In this document: in pieces, positions 10,300 to 17,783 of the stretch
Layout: each line of letters opens with the position of its first letter
Position numbering within the stretch: position 1 is the stretch's first letter
Origin: Syntrophomonadaceae bacterium
GTDB taxonomy: Bacteria > Bacillota > Syntrophomonadia > Syntrophomonadales > Syntrophomonadaceae
NCBI GenBank assembly: GCA_018432955.1
Contig: JAHDSE010000036.1
Span: 1-40,915 of the forward strand
Direction: 5' to 3'
Length of the DNA stretch: 40,915 nt
Translations under genes and position numbers: made by a program
Notes under the pieces: generated by a model
What the model saw: only the letters and a program-made list of their open reading frames with translations
What the model was told of the DNA's origin: nothing
Database searches by the model: none

Positions 10300-11205
10300 A
10301 TGGACTTTAACCTTGAACAATTTACCCGGGAAGTATTGTCACGAAAAAAATATGTCGATTCCTGTTTAAAAGAGTATCTGAACCCTGAAGATACCTATCC
10401 TGCACTTATACATGAAGCCATGCACTATGCTGTTTTTAATGGAGGAAAAAGGCTTAGACCCATTATGGTGCTGGAGGGAGCTGTCATTGCAGGAGGAAAA
10501 AAGGAAAAGGTAATGCCGGCAGCCTGTGCTATAGAAATGATTCACTCATATTCTCTGGTTCATGACGATTTGCCGGCTATGGATGATGATGATTTCCGCA
10601 GAGGAAAACCCACCTGTCATAAGGTTTTTGGCGAAGCCAATGCAATATTGACCGGTGATGCTCTCTTGACTGCAGCTTTTGAACTATTAGCCGGAACTAT
10701 AGATAAAGATGAGACAATGGCCGACAACCTGATAAGAGTGATTGCATTGATTTCTCGTGCCGCTGGAAGCCGGGGGATGATTGGAGGGCAGGTGCTGGAC
10801 CTGGAATCCGAGGGGAAAAACATTGACTATGAGACATTAAAGACCCTGCACACCTTGAAAACAGGTGAATTATTCCGGGCTTCATTAAAAACCGGTGCCA
10901 TATTGTGTGATATGGAGGAAAGCGGGCTGGAGGCATTGGATAATTATAGCCGGCATTTTGGACTGGCTTTTCAAATAAGTGATGATATCCTGGATGTCAA
11001 AGGTGATGAGAGCTTTACCGGCAAACCTGTCGGCAGTGATGAAAAAAACCTCAAAATAACCTATCCCAAACTTTTTGGCCTGGATAAGGCTTATGAATTG
11101 GCTCAAGAGAGCGTTAAGAACTGTATTGACAGTCTGAAAATATTCGGCAATGAAGCAGACTTCCTGCGCCAACTGGCCTGTTTTACCATAAAACGCAATT
11201 CATAA
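10300..11205 (+). CDS. ispA: Polyprenyl (farnesyl/geranyl) diphosphate synthase
   Basis: The enzyme condenses isopentenyl diphosphate with allylic diphosphates, making farnesyl diphosphate for undecaprenyl-P, quinones and related lipids. In the 301-residue product the first aspartate-rich motif is HDDLPAMDDDDFRRG (about 88-102), the second is DDILDVKGD (from 228), and NGGKRLRP (48-55) binds substrate. The ATG has AAGGAG 6 bp upstream. It is the last plus-strand gene before the minus-strand DUF1659 group, and dxs, which feeds the same pathway, lies further on after the OLE locus. Confidence 0.94.
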   Translation: MDFNLEQFTREVLSRKKYVDSCLKEYLNPEDTYPALIHEAMHYAVFNGGKRLRPIMVLEGAVIAGGKKEKVMPAACAIEMIHSYSLVHDDLPAMDDDDFRRGKPTCHKVFGEANAILTGDALLTAAFELLAGTIDKDETMADNLIRVIALISRAAGSRGMIGGQVLDLESEGKNIDYETLKTLHTLKTGELFRASLKTGAILCDMEESGLEALDNYSRHFGLAFQISDDILDVKGDESFTGKPVGSDEKNLKITYPKLFGLDKAYELAQESVKNCIDSLKIFGNEADFLRQLACFTIKRNS

Positions 11206-11268
11206 GACGCCATTTGCGGTTGACCAACAGGAAGCTATTAAAGTACTGGATACCACAGAATAAAAAAA

Positions 11269-11292
11269 GACCACGAGATTGCTCTCGTGGTC
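11269..11292 (-). terminator. Intrinsic terminator, strongest on the minus strand
   Basis: Nine-bp stem GACCACGAG (11269-11277) with CTCGTGGTC (11284-11292). Read on the minus strand it is followed by a run of seven T, so it ends the YvrJ transcript. It may also work for ispA on the plus strand, although the T-run there is absent. Confidence 0.8.
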
Positions 11293-11340
11293 ATAGAGCT
11301 TGATTAGAAAATAAATTGTGTCACTTGAATTCCTGCTTTA

Positions 11341-11562
11341 TCAGGTCGGAGGGCAGCTGCCAGACGGCTTGCGGTGTTCTGCAAGCGGAACCATCCCCTG
11401 GCTGTTCCGGTAAACCACATAGGGCAGGCTGATTATACACTCCCTTAGTTCAGCAATAGCCTGGGCAAGTTCTCCAAGTTTGCCTTCAATCCTTATCAAA
11501 AGATAAGCCGATACAGCTATGGGAAATCCCACATTGCCAATAATATTTAAAAGATCGTTCAT
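11341..11562 (-). CDS. YvrJ family small protein
   Basis: The 73-residue product starts with MNDLLNIIGNVGFPIAVSAYLLIRIEGKLGEL, the signature of the YvrJ family: one membrane helix then an amphipathic helix. ATG 11562 is chosen because GGAAGGAAGTG lies just upstream; an in-frame ATG seven codons earlier overlaps that site. The C-terminal ~25 residues look unstructured. YvrJ proteins commonly lie with DUF1659 and DUF2922 genes, both found about 420 bp upstream on the same strand. The function is unknown; a phage-holin-like role has been suggested from topology only. Confidence 0.75.
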   Translation of the reverse strand: MNDLLNIIGNVGFPIAVSAYLLIRIEGKLGELAQAIAELRECIISLPYVVYRNSQGMVPLAEHRKPSGSCPPT

Positions 11563-11649
11563 AACATAATCACTTCCTTCCATTTGAACTTTCCTGCCAG
11601 TGCATATCCTAAAAAAACAAGCAAACAGGTATAAAAACAGTTGAAAAAC

Positions 11650-11691
11650 GAGACGCGAGACGCTAGACGTAAAACGTTAGATGTGAGACGT
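11650..11691. repeat. Six degenerate 7-bp tandem repeats
   Basis: GAGACGC GAGACGC is followed by TAGACGT, AAAACGT, TAGATGT and GAGACGT in unbroken 7-bp register. The surrounding 11584-11944 gap has no convincing gene; it continues with a pyrimidine-rich tract near 11720-11790. A short open frame across it mirrors the repeat and is not credible as a gene. Confidence 0.6.
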
Positions 11692-11944
11692 AAGGATATG
11701 CGGGCTATTAAGCTTAAACCCTTTAACCTGCACCTTTCCCCTTACCCCTTTTACTCGAAACCTTGCCTTCCTTCTTCCTTTGCCCTTGCCATAATTGCTT
11801 TCAGGCACTCCTGTTGTTTGCTTACTATTTAAAATAATATTGAAGTCTGCTTTTGTTGTTCAGGATGGTAATTATAAAGTACACGGTTTTTCTGCCTGTC
11901 CAGCCTGTCAATAAGCTTTCAGGGCGAGCAAAAAGGGGAGAGAT

Positions 11945-11973
11945 CTGGTGGGCAGAATTTTCCTGCCCACCAG
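11945..11973 (-). terminator. Strong hairpin just after the DUF2922 gene
   Basis: Perfect 11-bp stem CTGGTGGGCAG (11945-11955) with CTGCCCACCAG (11963-11973), loop of 7. On the minus strand it lies 10 bp beyond the DUF2922 stop, and a TTTTT follows only after about 12 bases. It is probably a terminator or an RNA-processing/attenuation stem that separates this pair from yvrJ. Confidence 0.55.
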
Positions 11974-11982
11974 AATTGAAAA

Positions 11983-12207
11983 CTAAATCAGCTCAATATC
12001 TGATTTATCAGTCACTACCAGCCGGGCCCCGATTTTACCGGTTATTTCACCACCGGTACCAGAGAAAATATTCTTGTCCACAATGTTGTCCATTGCAGCC
12101 CCTACTTCGGCACCAGTCAGAGGGTCCTTGGCATCATAGACCTTGATGCGGTGGGTTTTATTGAGCTCGGTGGAAAAATCCATTTCCAGTATTCTCTGAG
12201 TGCTCAC
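11983..12207 (-). CDS. DUF2922 family protein
   Basis: This is a 74-residue protein with the DUF2922 pattern: LEMDFSTELNKTHRIKVYDAKDPLTGAEVGAAMDNIVDKNIF. It has no signal peptide or membrane helix. It starts at GTG 12207, after a clear AAAGGAGGAG site. It lies 37 bp downstream of the DUF1659 gene, its constant partner in Firmicutes. The biochemical role of both is unknown. Confidence 0.85.
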   Translation of the reverse strand: MSTQRILEMDFSTELNKTHRIKVYDAKDPLTGAEVGAAMDNIVDKNIFSGTGGEITGKIGARLVVTDKSDIELI

Positions 12208-12244
12208 CTAAACTCCTCCTTTCACAAAAATTTTTGCTCAAGTC

Positions 12245-12457
12245 CTAATTGCCGTCATCTTCCAGTTCCGCTGCTTCCCGGCGCTCCACATAGTCCAGGG
12301 TTTTAGACTGCAGGCCCAGGATACTTTCGGAAACGCTGAACACATCCGCATCAGTAGCAGCCGTCTTGATATTTTTGAAGTAGCGTTTGACAGTACTGTT
12401 CCCATCCTGCAAGACCTGCACCAGCTCAGAAGACAGAGGGGTCTTAACTATTGCCAT
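12245..12457 (-). CDS. DUF1659 family protein
   Basis: The 70-residue product shows the DUF1659 core FKNIKTAATDADVFSVSESILGLQSKTLDYVERRE, predicted alpha-helical and soluble. It starts at ATG 12457, with AGGAGGTG and a second AAAGGA upstream. It is the first gene of a minus-strand pair with DUF2922, facing away from the OLE/oapA locus. Its function is unknown. Confidence 0.85.
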   Translation of the reverse strand: MAIVKTPLSSELVQVLQDGNSTVKRYFKNIKTAATDADVFSVSESILGLQSKTLDYVERREAAELEDDGN

Positions 12458-12484
12458 TTCCTTTACACCTCCTTGTGGTTTTTA

Positions 12485-12567
12485 AGGAAGCCGCAGCCCG
12501 GCCTGGAATTAGACAGGTAGGCTTTTTGCGAGCTGTTTCTGGAGTAGACCGGCGGGCTGTGCTTCCT
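12485..12567 (-). other. Long imperfect stem in the leader of the DUF1659-DUF2922 genes
   Basis: AGGAAGC (12485-12491) and CAGCCCG (12494-12500) pair with GCTTCCT (12561-12567) and CGGGCTG (12553-12559), giving 14 bp with a small internal loop around a 50-nt interior. It sits 28-110 bases upstream of the DUF1659 start, so it would be in that gene's 5' untranslated RNA. I cannot match it to a known riboswitch. Confidence 0.4.
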
Positions 12568-12653
12568 GTCCCGATTATAGAGCGGCTGATGGCAACTAAT
12601 GAAACAGCAGTTAATTGAGAAAACCTTCTTGCGAAAAAGCCGAAATAAAAACC

Positions 12654-12670
12654 CCGGCTATGATAGCCGG
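12654..12670 (-). terminator. Short terminator-like hairpin on the minus strand
   Basis: CCGGCTA/TAGCCGG with a 3-base loop; on the minus strand it is followed by GGTTTTTATTT. It would stop any transcript entering the DUF1659 leader from the OLE side. A second hairpin, AAACCCATC/GATGGGTTT, lies at about 12770-12793. Confidence 0.5.
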
Positions 12671-12853
12671 TGCAAGTTATAAAAATGGAGAGGATAAACG
12701 GTTTTTTTAAAAACAAATTAGATTAGGATAAGAATTAGGGGAGAGGATACAATTCCGCACCCATATTTTAAACCCATCAAATTCGATGGGTTTAAAAAGC
12801 AGGTAGGGCTAAACACCTTAACTGCCCTGTCAGATACTTTGCGTCCGGGTGAC

Positions 12854-12882
12854 TGGAAAGGGAAGTGTTTTAGTGATATAAT
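12854..12882 (+). promoter_or_regulatory. Probable promoter of the OLE RNA / oapA transcript
   Basis: An extended -10 box, TGATATAAT (12874-12882), lies 17 bp after TGGAAA (12854-12859, 4 of 6 match to TTGACA). Transcription would start near 12889, just before the closing helix of the OLE RNA. A dedicated promoter is expected because minus-strand genes separate OLE from ispA. Confidence 0.55.
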
Positions 12883-12888
12883 GTCTTA

Positions 12889-13490
12889 ATGAAAAGTAAC
12901 TGGCAAAAGGTTGCAGTATTCTAGTCAGCCCTATCAGTTTCGAAGACGGGCCTAAAAATCCGTAAAGGGCACATCGATGAAGCTTCTGGTGGCGGCTTCT
13001 GACGCCCAGTCAGGGGTCGTTGCTGGGAGTTAAGGGCGTAGGGGCAATCCGCAAAGGCATGCGGGCATGACCCCTGCACCTGTGGAGGCCAGGTATGGTT
13101 AAACAGTATACCTGGAAAACCTGCATTCCGGTTAAAGCTGGGTGTAGTGTAGCCTGCCTTGCGTGGCGGCGGCGAATAGACTTTTTGGGGGTGAGGGATG
13201 TCCCGGCCAGGATATGCTCGCCTGTTTTGAAACCGTGTGCTGCAAAAGAGGCTAGAGCCTGATGTGGGCTGTTGAGGAAAACTCCTAGACTGTGTGCTTT
13301 CAGCACGGTTTATTGAGGATTAAAGTGTGAACTTAGTGGTAATCCAGCCCTACCTTTGGTGACGGGGTGGAGCAGTCGTAAAGGGAAACCGCCCATTTGG
13401 CAACATTTGGGAGAACTGCTGGGAAAACCTGCTGGACCTATGTCGCAGCGTTTACTCGATAAACAACCTTTTGCCGGAACTGTTATAAGG
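12889..13490 (+). ncRNA. ole: OLE RNA (ornate large extremophilic RNA)
   Basis: This is a gene-free ~600-base stretch between ispA and dxs that is directly followed by the gene for an OapA-type membrane protein. That is the known genomic setting of OLE RNA, and the length matches (~610 nt). It is clearly a folded RNA. GGCAAAAGGTTG (12902-12913) pairs perfectly with CAACCTTTTGCC (13464-13475) and closes the molecule. Internal stems include CAGGGGTC/GACCCCTG (13011-13018 with 13069-13076) and CCAGGTAT/ATACCTGG (13089-13096 with 13108-13115). A GNRA-rich 3' domain near 13270-13440 is also present. OLE RNA forms a membrane ribonucleoprotein with OapA and other partners and affects stress tolerance and Mg2+ handling in Bacillus halodurans. 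Ends are approximate; no terminator separates it from oapA. Identification is from context and folding, not a covariance search. Confidence 0.85.
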
Positions 13491-13633
13491 GGTGACACAA
13501 GCGGACACAAGGGGGACACAAGGGGACGGTTCTTTTGTGTCATGCTAATGACACAAAAGAACCGTCCCCTTTTGTCCCCCTTTTGTCCCCCTTGTGTCCC
13601 CCTTGTGTCCTTGTCACCGTCCCCTTGTGTCAC
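13489..13633. repeat. Large REP-like palindrome with degenerate GTGTCCCC repeats
   Basis: A perfect 22-bp inverted repeat (13521-13542 with 13549-13570, loop TGCTAA) has arms that start AGGGGACGGTTCTTTTG. It is flanked on both sides by short units of the form GGGGGACACAA (left) and TTGTGTCCCCC (right), so the whole block is an imperfect palindrome of about 145 bp. Palindromes of this GGGACGGTTCTTTTGTGTCA type are common intergenic repeats in Clostridia. It sits between the OLE RNA 3' end and oapA. Confidence 0.8.
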
Positions 13634-13656
13634 CCTTGACGGAGGATATAGCATAA

Positions 13657-14229
13657 TTGAGTGGCTATATTAAGAAAAGTAATTTAATATCAGGATTGAT
13701 AGTAGCCTTTTTTACTTTTTTTATTGCTTTGCTGGTCAGCCTCGGTTCTGAGGCACTGGTACAGGCTGTCAACAATGTAATAGTGGCTGTCATTCTTTTG
13801 CTTTTTATAATTTTCCTGGGGATATTTTTTGATATTATTGGAACAGCTGCTACAGCTGCAGAAATGCCGCCTTTTAATGCCAGGGCGGCAAAAAAAGTAT
13901 TTGGAGCCAAACAAGCGGTTAAACTAAGTGGAAACGCAGACAAGGTTGCTAATTTTTGCAATGATGTAGTGGGAGATATAGCCGGCACTCTAAGTGGAGC
14001 TATTGGTGCCGGAATTGTTATAAGCCTGGCAGGAGAAATTGATTATGTGGATTTGGTTTTAACAGGTGCTGTAATGACCAGTATGATTGCTGCGCTGACT
14101 GTGGGCGGCAAGGCCATTGGTAAAAGTATTGCGTTAAATAATGCTAATAGTATAATCTTTAAAGTAGCGATGATAATGGCTTGGGTTGAAAACTTCAGCG
14201 GCACTGAATTGTTTGAGAACAGAAAGTGA
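13657..14229 (+). CDS. oapA: OLE-associated membrane protein OapA
   Basis: This 190-residue polytopic membrane protein has hydrophobic helices at about residues 10-32, 38-60, 105-130 and 133-155. A basic, Ala-rich cytoplasmic loop (about 65-100; NARAAKKVFGAKQAVKLSGNADKVANFCNDVVGD) lies between the second and third. In Bacillus halodurans OapA binds OLE RNA and brings it to the membrane; position right after the RNA and before dxs matches. The start is TTG 13657, 11 bp after GGAGG, giving MSGYIKKSN. Translation may depend on read-through from OLE and across the REP palindrome. It ends 7 bp before dxs. Assignment is from topology, loop sequence and neighbourhood. Confidence 0.82.
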   Translation: MSGYIKKSNLISGLIVAFFTFFIALLVSLGSEALVQAVNNVIVAVILLLFIIFLGIFFDIIGTAATAAEMPPFNARAAKKVFGAKQAVKLSGNADKVANFCNDVVGDIAGTLSGAIGAGIVISLAGEIDYVDLVLTGAVMTSMIAALTVGGKAIGKSIALNNANSIIFKVAMIMAWVENFSGTELFENRK

Positions 14230-14236
14230 GATATTT

Positions 14237-16150
14237 ATGCAGGGGATTCTTGATTCTATCAACTCGCCACGAGATTTAAAAAACCTCGAATTTAAAGATA
14301 TGAGTCAATTGGCTGCCGAGATAAGACAGCTTTTAATTAAAAGCGTTTCTGAATGCGGTGGTCACCTGGCTGCTAATCTGGGTGTAGTGGAGATTTCTAT
14401 TGTGCTTCATTATATCTTTAATACTCCTGATGATAAGATTATCTGGGATGTAGGTCACCAGAGCTATGTGCACAAGATTCTGACCGGCAGACAGGAAAAG
14501 ATGAGTTCACTTCGGCAGTTCGGGGGTATGAGCGGCTTTCCCCGTTTTGATGAATCATCCCATGATTCTTTTAATACCGGTCATAGCAGTACATCTATTT
14601 CTGCAGCTCTGGGTATGGCTATAGCCCGTGATATTAAAGGAGAAAACCACTCGGTTATTGCTGTAATCGGCGATGGGGCGCTAACAGGCGGTATGGCTTT
14701 TGAAGCTCTCAATCATGCTGGACATGAAAGCAGAGACCTGCTGGTTATACTCAATGACAATGAAATGTCTATATCCAGAAATGTTGGTGCCATGTCCGCT
14801 TATCTTAATCGTCTGAGGACAGATCCTTCTTATTCAAGAACTAAAGAGGAAATCGAAGCAGCCCTGAGCAGAATTCCGGGAATTGGACCCAATATTGCCC
14901 GGGCAGCAAACAGATTTAAAGATACCCTGAAGTATTTCCTGGTTCCAGGCATATTGTTTGAAGAACTGGGTTTTACCTACATAGGCCCGGTAAACGGACA
15001 CAGCCTGGAAGAATTAAAATTGGTATTAAGCAATGCCAGAAGAATGAAAGGTCCCATCCTGGTGCATACCATAACTCAGAAGGGAAAAGGATATGAACCC
15101 GCCAGCAATCATCCTGATGTATTTCATGGAATAGGTCCTTTTGATGTGAGAACCGGAAATACCCCGCAAAAAGCCATTAAAACCTATACGGAATTTTTTG
15201 GTGATTTTCTGGTACAACAGGCAAAAGAAGATAAAAGTATTGTAGCGATTACGGCAGCCATGACCAGTGGTACGGGGCTGGATGAGTTTTCCCGGACTTT
15301 CCCGGAACGTTTTTTTGATGTGGGCATTTGTGAACAGCATGCGGTGACTATGGCAGCCGGCATGGCCAGGCAGGGACTAAAACCCGTAGTTGCCATATAT
15401 TCTACTTTTGTGCAAAGGGCTTATGACCAGATTATTCATGATGTGGCCATGCAGAATCTCCCGGTAGTTTTTGCTATAGACAGAGCAGGGCTGGTTGGAG
15501 AAGATGGGCCGACCCATCATGGGGTTTTCGATTTATCTTTTTTGAGAAATGTTCCTAATTTGACTATAATGGCACCATCAAATGAAAATGAATTACTGGA
15601 TATGTTGTATACTGCTTTCCGTATTAACGGCCCGGTGGCTATCAGATACCCACGCGGAGCGGGTGAAGGAGTGAAGATTTCTGCTAAACGCAGTATTCTG
15701 GAGCCAGGCAAGTTCAAGGAAATATCCCGTGGGGAAAAACTGGCTATAGTGGCTATTGGACGGGGAGTCAGCATCGGCAGGGAGGTAATGCGGGTTCTGG
15801 CTGAGAGGGGATTCAATGCCATGCTTGTGGATGCCAGGTTTATTAAGCCTCTGGATCAGGAGTCATTGCTCAAACTGGCGCGCAATAATTATCTGGTGAC
15901 TATAGAAGACAATTGTCTGGCAGGCGGCTTTGGCAGTGCTTTGCTGGAGGTGCTGGCAGATAATAATATAGAATGCGAGCTATTGAGAATCGGAATTGCC
16001 GATGAATTTGTGGAGCATGGGAAAGTGGATTTGCTGTTTGATTATTTGAATATGGACCCGGAGTCAATTGCAGATAGAATTATCAGCAGGTGGCCGGCTA
16101 TCCTGGGTAAGAAAGAAAAATGGGAGTTGCTCAAATTTGGCGAAACTTAG
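14237..16150 (+). CDS. dxs: 1-deoxy-D-xylulose-5-phosphate synthase
   Basis: The enzyme joins pyruvate and glyceraldehyde-3-phosphate with thiamine diphosphate, the entry step of the methylerythritol phosphate pathway. ATG 14237 gives a 637-residue protein that starts MQGILDSINSPRDLKNL; a longer frame into oapA is ignored. Visible are GGHLAANLGVVEISIVLHY, the thiamine motif GDGALTGGMAFEALNHAGH, the transketolase pyrimidine domain with EQHAVTMAAGMA and the AIDRAGLVGEDGPTHHG loop, and the C-terminal domain. Length is normal. It overlaps tlyA by 14 bp. Confidence 0.96.
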   Translation: MQGILDSINSPRDLKNLEFKDMSQLAAEIRQLLIKSVSECGGHLAANLGVVEISIVLHYIFNTPDDKIIWDVGHQSYVHKILTGRQEKMSSLRQFGGMSGFPRFDESSHDSFNTGHSSTSISAALGMAIARDIKGENHSVIAVIGDGALTGGMAFEALNHAGHESRDLLVILNDNEMSISRNVGAMSAYLNRLRTDPSYSRTKEEIEAALSRIPGIGPNIARAANRFKDTLKYFLVPGILFEELGFTYIGPVNGHSLEELKLVLSNARRMKGPILVHTITQKGKGYEPASNHPDVFHGIGPFDVRTGNTPQKAIKTYTEFFGDFLVQQAKEDKSIVAITAAMTSGTGLDEFSRTFPERFFDVGICEQHAVTMAAGMARQGLKPVVAIYSTFVQRAYDQIIHDVAMQNLPVVFAIDRAGLVGEDGPTHHGVFDLSFLRNVPNLTIMAPSNENELLDMLYTAFRINGPVAIRYPRGAGEGVKISAKRSILEPGKFKEISRGEKLAIVAIGRGVSIGREVMRVLAERGFNAMLVDARFIKPLDQESLLKLARNNYLVTIEDNCLAGGFGSALLEVLADNNIECELLRIGIADEFVEHGKVDLLFDYLNMDPESIADRIISRWPAILGKKEKWELLKFGET

Positions 16151-16949: not shown

Positions 16950-17339
16950 GTGACAATACTGCTGGTCAACAACAGGTTTAATGAAAGGACTGAAATAAAG
17001 GCACGGGAAATAGCAGAAAAACTTAAAGCCAGGGGAATCGAGGTTGCCATTGATAATGGCCCTGATACTTATTATTCGGCCGATATTGATGGTATCGTTG
17101 TTCTGGGTGGAGATGGTACTGTTCTAAGGGCGGCCCGTCAGTACGGGCAAAGAAAAAAGCCGGTTATGGCAGTTAATATGGGTACAGTAGGTTTTTTAAG
17201 CAGTATAGATCTGAGCGAATTTGATACATACATAGAGGCTTTTATTCAGGGTAAATATCTGATTGATGAGAGGATAATGCTCGACGTCAGTATTTTTAAG
17301 CAGGATACATTGTTACAAAGGGTTATTTGCCTGAATTAG
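16950..17339 (+). CDS. nadK: NAD kinase, N-terminal part (frame ends at in-frame TAG)
   Basis: NAD kinase phosphorylates NAD to NADP. This 129-residue piece carries the N-terminal domain, with the catalytic motif VVLGGDGTVLRAAR (about 50-63) and VNMGTVGFLSSI (about 75-86). It stops with TAG at 17337-17339 exactly where the conserved NE/ND motif should continue: the frame reads VICLN, stop, MVIKSGTPRM, and intact homologues read LN(D/E)xVIKSG. A single G-to-T change in a GAG codon would explain it. The start is GTG 16950, just after AGGTTAGCAAAAAG. The other half follows in the same frame. Confidence 0.85.
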   Translation: MTILLVNNRFNERTEIKAREIAEKLKARGIEVAIDNGPDTYYSADIDGIVVLGGDGTVLRAARQYGQRKKPVMAVNMGTVGFLSSIDLSEFDTYIEAFIQGKYLIDERIMLDVSIFKQDTLLQRVICLN

Positions 17340-17783
17340 ATGGTAATAAAATCCGGAACACCCCGGATGCTTGAGTTTAGTCTGGACATTGACGGTAAGA
17401 TGGCATTGAATTATCAGGGGGATGGCCTTATTATAGCTACTCCTACAGGATCAACTGCTTATTCGCTTTCTGCCGGGGGACCAATTTTGGAGCCTGTAAT
17501 GGAAAGCCTGCTGCTTACTCCCATTGCTTCACATATGCTAAACAGGAGGCCGCTGGTACTTAGTTCCAAAAGAATTCTTTCTTTATCCTTACCGAAATCT
17601 CAGAAGATAATAATTTCAATGGATGGACAGGTTTCGATAGAGCTCAGCCAGGAGTCATGGATAGAGCTCAAGCAAGCCAGAGAAAAATTGCAGCTGCTTA
17701 AATTCAATGACCTGAGCTTTTTTCCAAGCATAAACGGCGAATTCAGAAAGCCGGCCAAAGAATTACCGGGAAAAGATGAATGA
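17340..17783 (+). CDS. nadK: NAD kinase, C-terminal part
   Basis: This frame begins with ATG directly after the TAG of the upstream half, in the same reading frame. The 147-residue product holds the C-terminal beta-sandwich of NAD kinase, with GDGLIIATPTGSTAYSLSAGGPIL (about 27-50), PIASHMLNRRPLVL and SMDGQVSI. It has no own ribosome binding site, though TAGATG could allow termination-reinitiation. Without the GGDG domain and the acidic residue of the NE/D motif it cannot work alone. Together the two pieces have the length of a whole NAD kinase (about 277). A true mutation, readthrough or a sequence error are all possible. Confidence 0.8.
   Translation: MVIKSGTPRMLEFSLDIDGKMALNYQGDGLIIATPTGSTAYSLSAGGPILEPVMESLLLTPIASHMLNRRPLVLSSKRILSLSLPKSQKIIISMDGQVSIELSQESWIELKQAREKLQLLKFNDLSFFPSINGEFRKPAKELPGKDE

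Follow-up and report, generated by a model that had tools for sequence, protein, structure and literature searches.

A full-length OLE RNA gene (ole), followed on the same strand by the gene of its protein partner OapA, was identified in a 40,915-nt stretch of DNA from a Syntrophomonadaceae bacterium, which was analyzed as a whole and is called the window below. OLE RNA is a large bacterial noncoding RNA that likely acts at the cell membrane under stress. The locus is a sound but ordinary full-length new example of this known class, and its identification is correct and well supported; useful details are a covarying closing helix, a likely promoter shared with most of the compared relatives, and a hairpin that separates ole from oapA. 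For OLE RNA, the literature already describes an own promoter, the P1 stem and oapA.

The explanation that we regard as nearly certain is that 12892-13486 would be transcribed into full-length OLE RNA, likely from its own extended -10 promoter, that the ends of this RNA would be joined by a predicted 14-bp P1 helix, and that a dimer of the RNA together with OapA, OapB and OapC would form a membrane-bound ribonucleoprotein acting in stress adaptation. Its dimer, membrane placement and stress role are carried over from published work on Halalkalibacterium halodurans, C. acetobutylicum and C. botulinum. The coordinates of all features are given in Table 1.

Table 1. Features of the ole locus and its surroundings (window coordinates)
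Feature	Position	Strand	Evidence
ispA, farnesyl diphosphate synthase	10300..11205	+	NF045485, 359 bits
YvrJ gene	11341-11583	-	Pfam match above cut-off; between ispA and ole
DUF2922 gene	11983-12207	-	Pfam match above cut-off; between ispA and ole
DUF1659 gene	12245-12457	-	Pfam match above cut-off; between ispA and ole
Predicted ole promoter	12854..12882	+	TGGAAA, 17-nt spacer, extended -10 TGATATAAT; predicted start about 12889
ole, full-length OLE RNA	12892..13486	+	RF01071, model 1-616
Closing helix P1, 5' arm	12900..12913	+	Complementarity 12/12 plus two added pairs; covariation
Closing helix P1, 3' arm	13464..13477	+	Complementarity, covariation
REP-like composite palindrome (putative)	13490..13638	.	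Inverted-repeat arms, fold energy, genome copies of core
oapA, four-helix membrane protein, OLE partner	13657..14229	+	S. wolfei identity, weak CNNM match, hydrophobicity
dxs	14237..16150	+	TIGR00204, 835 bits; first in-frame ATG as start

The window encodes a complete and conserved OLE RNA

When the window was subjected to cmscan, the Rfam OLE model RF01071 was matched over its entire length (1-616 of 616) with 476.7 bits (E 5.4e-137; gathering score 50 bits), which bears out the sequence-only reading: this had placed an OLE RNA here and named an Infernal search with the Rfam model as the check. The match covers 595 bases, corresponding to the class length of about 600 nt, and was the sole Rfam match at gathering threshold within the window. 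There is one copy of ole in the source genome. Among the compared genomes, OLE was present in 50 of 61 (source genome counted) and in none of the 14 control genomes.

The window OLE was aligned with 53 others (54 distinct sequences). It keeps 222 of the 224 columns with a conservation of 95% or more among the others and deviates at 13081 and 13162 only, a retention equalled by several other relatives. Its nearest sequences are those of L006 (85%) and of L019, L062 and L016 (83%). The model alignment is gapped in one stem (model positions 203-231), which was taken for P7; for the part of OLE RNA from J6/7 to P8, variation is described in the Figure 1 legend of PMC12265935. The same paper names an A-rich P4 loop, the P5.1/P6.1 kissing loops and a symmetrical P9 loop as dimerization loops. 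Candidate sequences for these elements, assigned from its text, not from the figure, are present in the window, namely CCTAAAAAT at 12951-12959 (P4 loop), GCC at 13004-13006 with GGC at 13056-13058 (P5.1/P6.1), and GGCC at 13205-13208 (P9 loop). No paper on OLE RNA with Syntrophomonas was found in a literature search that covered few subscription journals.

The ends of OLE RNA form a covarying closing helix

For comparisons between loci, 95 loci were collected, of which 76 contained the 5' OLE motif in a pattern search; one of them (L034) is a second copy of the window and was dropped, leaving 75. A 3' anchor was also found in 69 of these, yielding 48 distinct arm sets, while L002, L005, L027, L049, L051 and L081 were left aside for want of this anchor. 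For the promoter count the 75 loci were reduced to 58 distinct upstream stretches. Outside the counts stand L037, L052, L054, L085, L090, L091, L093, L094 and L095, where the covariance model finds OLE and the patterns miss it, as well as the OLE-carrying genomes G043 and G059. On L054, a distant relative, a c-di-AMP riboswitch (RF00379, 92.7 bits) was noticed at 1160-1295, about 200 nt downstream of OLE and on its strand; a link between c-di-AMP and OLE has been proposed (PMC11332333).

The perfect pairing of the block ends that had been noticed earlier was recovered: 12902-12913 and 13464-13475 are complementary at 12 of 12 positions, and the helix grows by a U12901-G13476 wobble and a C12900-G13477 pair to 14 pairs. 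When the block was shuffled 20,000 times at the mononucleotide level, no shuffle had a 12-bp Watson-Crick helix joining its terminal 40-nt segments. Folded without constraints, 12889-13487 (z -4.64) has the closing-helix ends paired; in the Rfam consensus they are unpaired.

The covariation check that had been suggested for this helix was carried out on the 48 distinct arm sets, which stem from related loci. Pairing was 11.40 of 12 positions for the true arms and fell to 9.19 of 12 when 3' arms were swapped among loci (sd 0.21; maximum of 2000 permutations 9.98). The 3'-arm offset (6 to 10 nt) was picked by best pairing, with true and exchanged arms treated alike. Two-sided changes were seen at pair 3 (U-A/G-C), pair 5 (G-C/U-A) and pairs 6 and 7 (A-U/G-C), and one locus, L053, has a poorly pairing helix (7/12). 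The closing helix is thus real and covarying. As such it was already known, because P1 is named in PMC12265935, where it is assigned to domain 2 of OLE RNA.

The predicted ole promoter is shared by most related loci compared

An exact extended -10 element, TGATATAAT, is located at 12874-12882, as the sequence-only reading had reported together with a start near 12889. Its -35 element, TGGAAA, is weak (4/6), and -35 and -10 together match at 10 of 12 positions. A consensus scan of 11200-14300 returned 7 promoter-like sites against 4.3 +/- 2.2 expected, which is not significant alone, and the window by itself therefore proves little about the promoter. Support for the predicted promoter comes from the relatives. 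Exact TGNTATAAT occurs no more than 60 nt upstream of the closing helix in 46 of the 58 distinct loci; its rate in the rest of the upstream sequence (4 in 83,292 bases) would predict 0.14. In 34 of these 46 loci the distance from the end of the motif to the helix is 17 to 20 nt, and 12 of the 58 lack the exact -10. The compared loci are related, so that these counts are not independent events. A CTGGAA-like -35, a motif chosen after inspection, is correctly spaced in 20 of the 46 motif loci, compared with 0 to 3 in windows further upstream, and TTGACA was found as -35 in 0 of the 46.

The minus-strand genes that had been described between ispA and ole were confirmed by Pfam matches as YvrJ, DUF2922 and DUF1659 genes (11341..12457). 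None of the three was matched in any further OLE or OapA locus of the comparison; in Syntrophomonas wolfei subsp. methylbutyratica (L055) and in L060, different opposite-strand frames are found upstream of ole. A loopless 16-nt inverted repeat (12766-12797, 94% complementary) lies in the space that separates the minus-strand genes of the window from the ole promoter and is possibly a transcription boundary.

It had been argued that ole needs its own promoter here owing to these minus-strand genes. This explanation of the promoter as a local answer was rejected: ispA lies on the same strand within 300 nt upstream in 35 of the 58 distinct loci, and 26 of these 35 carry the same -10 motif. The motif is likewise found in 15 of the 16 loci without an ispA match in the examined flank, a group that is in part due to the shortness of the flanks (1.5 kb in many loci), and in the remaining 7 loci ispA is further off. 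Since the motif is kept in ispA-adjacent loci, the promoter of the window seems to be the usual ole promoter of the group, and ole apparently retains a start of its own irrespective of what stands upstream.

Transcription of ole by read-through from upstream genes would have a precedent in H. halodurans, whose cluster, with oapA as immediate neighbor of ole, is transcribed as a single polycistronic RNA (PMC12265935). For the window we judge it very unlikely, as the upstream genes lie on the opposite strand and the extended -10 recurs in 46 of the 58 distinct loci. An own extended -10 promoter, with relatives as its evidence, likely drives ole. It is not new in kind, because an own ole promoter has already been reported for H. 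halodurans (PMC9723947). H. halodurans resembles the window in its own ole promoter, its adjacent oapA and its OapB and OapC (YbxF) partners; it differs in that its cluster is also made as one long RNA, whereas ole in the window is flanked by minus-strand genes and a palindrome.

A REP-like palindrome separates ole from oapA

The adjacency of ole and oapA that had been put forward stands, but a palindrome in between had gone unreported. At 13503-13588 it has 41-nt arms that are 95% complementary and enclose a 4-nt loop, to which outer repeats are added, and the stretch 13488-13656 folds with -108.2 kcal/mol (z -12.71). The closing helix and the oapA start are 181 nt apart. Over the 50 loci in which this gap could be delimited on both sides the median is 34.5 nt, and the gap of the window is the third longest. 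We read the palindrome as a REP-like insertion, and the gap would be this long because a palindrome of a dispersed family was inserted between the two genes. Its core, GGGGACGGTTCTTTTGTG, has 23 matches in the genome at up to 2 mismatches (reversed control: 0), and these copies sit in many places as long hairpins. In the 111 other loci compared the exact core was not found, and a literature search on the repeat core gave nothing related.

Three Y1-type transposase matches were detected in the source genome. On contig C63, a 254-aa frame resembling REP-associated tyrosine transposases (REP_Tyr_transpos, 69 bits) has its start at a distance of 53 nt from a copy of the core. In its dispersed palindromes and Y1-type transposase matches the family is like REP elements with their REP-associated tyrosine transposases; unlike in those systems, the candidate transposase scores below the cut-off of 80 bits. 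The short enterobacterial REPs have shorter arms than the palindrome of the window.

Ten loci with gaps of at least 68 nt were folded between ole and oapA. Strong folds were also obtained for L026 (z -5.8) and L020 (z -3.0), whose sequences are unlike the window palindrome; z was near -2 for L007, L089 and L038, and no strong fold was obtained for L074 (z -1.4), L010 (z -1.3), L017 (z -0.6) and L043 (z 0.1). The locus of S. wolfei subsp. methylbutyratica resembles the window in its full model match, closing helix, extended -10 and the order of oapA and dxs behind ole, and has other opposite-strand genes upstream; what sets the window apart are its minus-strand YvrJ, DUF2922 and DUF1659 genes and the palindrome before oapA.

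The palindrome might instead be the native intrinsic terminator of ole and not a mobile-type repeat, as it lies directly 3' of the RNA and a pattern scan called 13522-13569 terminator-like. Against this stand the tail TTTTGTCCCC, which is a poor U-run, the usual gap of about 35 nt, and a core that recurs 23 times in the genome, largely as long hairpins, and in exact form in none of the 111 other loci; we hold this view to be improbable. The palindrome would form a hairpin of about 50 pairs in the transcript, which would probably terminate OLE RNA or shield its 3' side and, through less read-through, would probably weaken co-expression of oapA with ole; the long gaps of other relatives that lack a strong fold speak against this part of the reading.

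As a general terminator, a U-run after the closing helix proved a dead end, with TTTTT within 30 nt in 21 of 53 loci. Rfam matches to miRNA-like families over 13471-13625 were rejected, since they are below gathering scores and reflect the long palindrome.

OapA is encoded next to ole, and likely OapB and OapC elsewhere in the genome

The TTG-started gene of a four-helix membrane protein that had been noted behind the RNA is oapA. Its start codon, TTG at 13657, follows a GGAGG (13641-13645), and the 190-aa product contains four hydrophobic regions and is 79% identical to a Syntrophomonas wolfei protein. TTG was also the extrapolated oapA start in 29 of the 55 distinct loci with an OapA match. 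The CNNM match of OapA is weak (23.3 bits; cut-off 28.4); similarity of OapA to CNNM proteins has been published (PMC11332333). A strong MpfA-type CNNM protein of 458 aa is additionally encoded on L033 (contig C47), alongside OapA; such proteins are reported to anticorrelate with OLE, though some species have both (PMC11332333). Behind oapA, the listed open reading frame of dxs begins at TTG 14186. Further downstream, the NAD kinase gene (16950-17783) contains an in-frame TAG (17337-17339) that parts the N-terminal from the C-terminal domain, either a real interruption or an assembly error.

In two loci of one genus, L048 (genome G032) and L050 (genome G017), dxs is the next gene after ole and no oapA match lies in between, and in L050 no other ole-strand frame of at least 50 aa was found between ole and dxs. 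Both genomes encode an OapA relative, 53% identical to that of the window, on a different contig (L122, L123). Two more OapA relatives of the same similarity (L079, L080) come from Syntrophomonadaceae draft genomes, and in the DNA examined around them no OLE was found. Therefore, ole and oapA need not be neighbors.

The source genome is 67% complete, and its named relatives probably place the organism in or near Syntrophomonadaceae. The same draft genome likely encodes OapB and OapC, both by homology only: an OapB homologue at L119:1711-1992, found through its position near infA, matches PDB 7k9b (E 1.7e-9), and a YbxF/OapC homologue at L032:1501-1803 matches PDB 4lck (E 8.1e-13). In OLE-carrying genomes the pair of OapB and OapC is common, not universal. 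Two Pfam KOW matches were rejected as OapB: the first sits in a ribosomal protein cluster, and the second, a 209-aa frame, is presumably NusG. An L7Ae protein on contig C69 was rejected as OapC; it stands between ylxR- and infB-like genes and is YlxQ-like.

With these data it can be asked whether the locus is a decaying OLE relic, that is, a silent, non-functional copy left after separation from ispA and arrival of the palindrome. A repeat-family element inserted behind the RNA, the lost ispA neighbor and the two departures from the conserved core would fit such a history. Against it stand a conserved core as well kept as in several relatives, an intact closing helix and promoter motif, an open oapA frame with its high identity to that of S. 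wolfei, and the OapB and OapC homologues, so that we give the relic almost no credence. The family match, the covarying helix, the intact core, the adjacent oapA and the OapB and OapC homologues agree with a full-length OLE RNA.

Discussion

A wider generalization, which we offer tentatively and consider rather doubtful, would apply to the Syntrophomonadaceae as a whole. In this family ole would be an independent unit with a dedicated promoter (CTGGAA-type -35 and extended -10), and its link to oapA would be loosening in two ways, in the window by a transposase-mobilized hairpin that came to serve as the 3' boundary of the RNA, and in the sister genus (G017, G032) by relocation of oapA. OLE RNA and OapA, which are co-transcribed elsewhere, would then come from separate transcripts.

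Among bacterial RNAs whose biochemical role is still sought, OLE RNA is one of the largest and best conserved. At its near-fixed spacing from the closing helix, the predicted promoter allows the 5' end to be tested across a family of syntrophic anaerobes. A natural experiment on whether OLE RNA and OapA must share a transcript would be offered by the hairpin before oapA, together with the displaced oapA of the sister genus.
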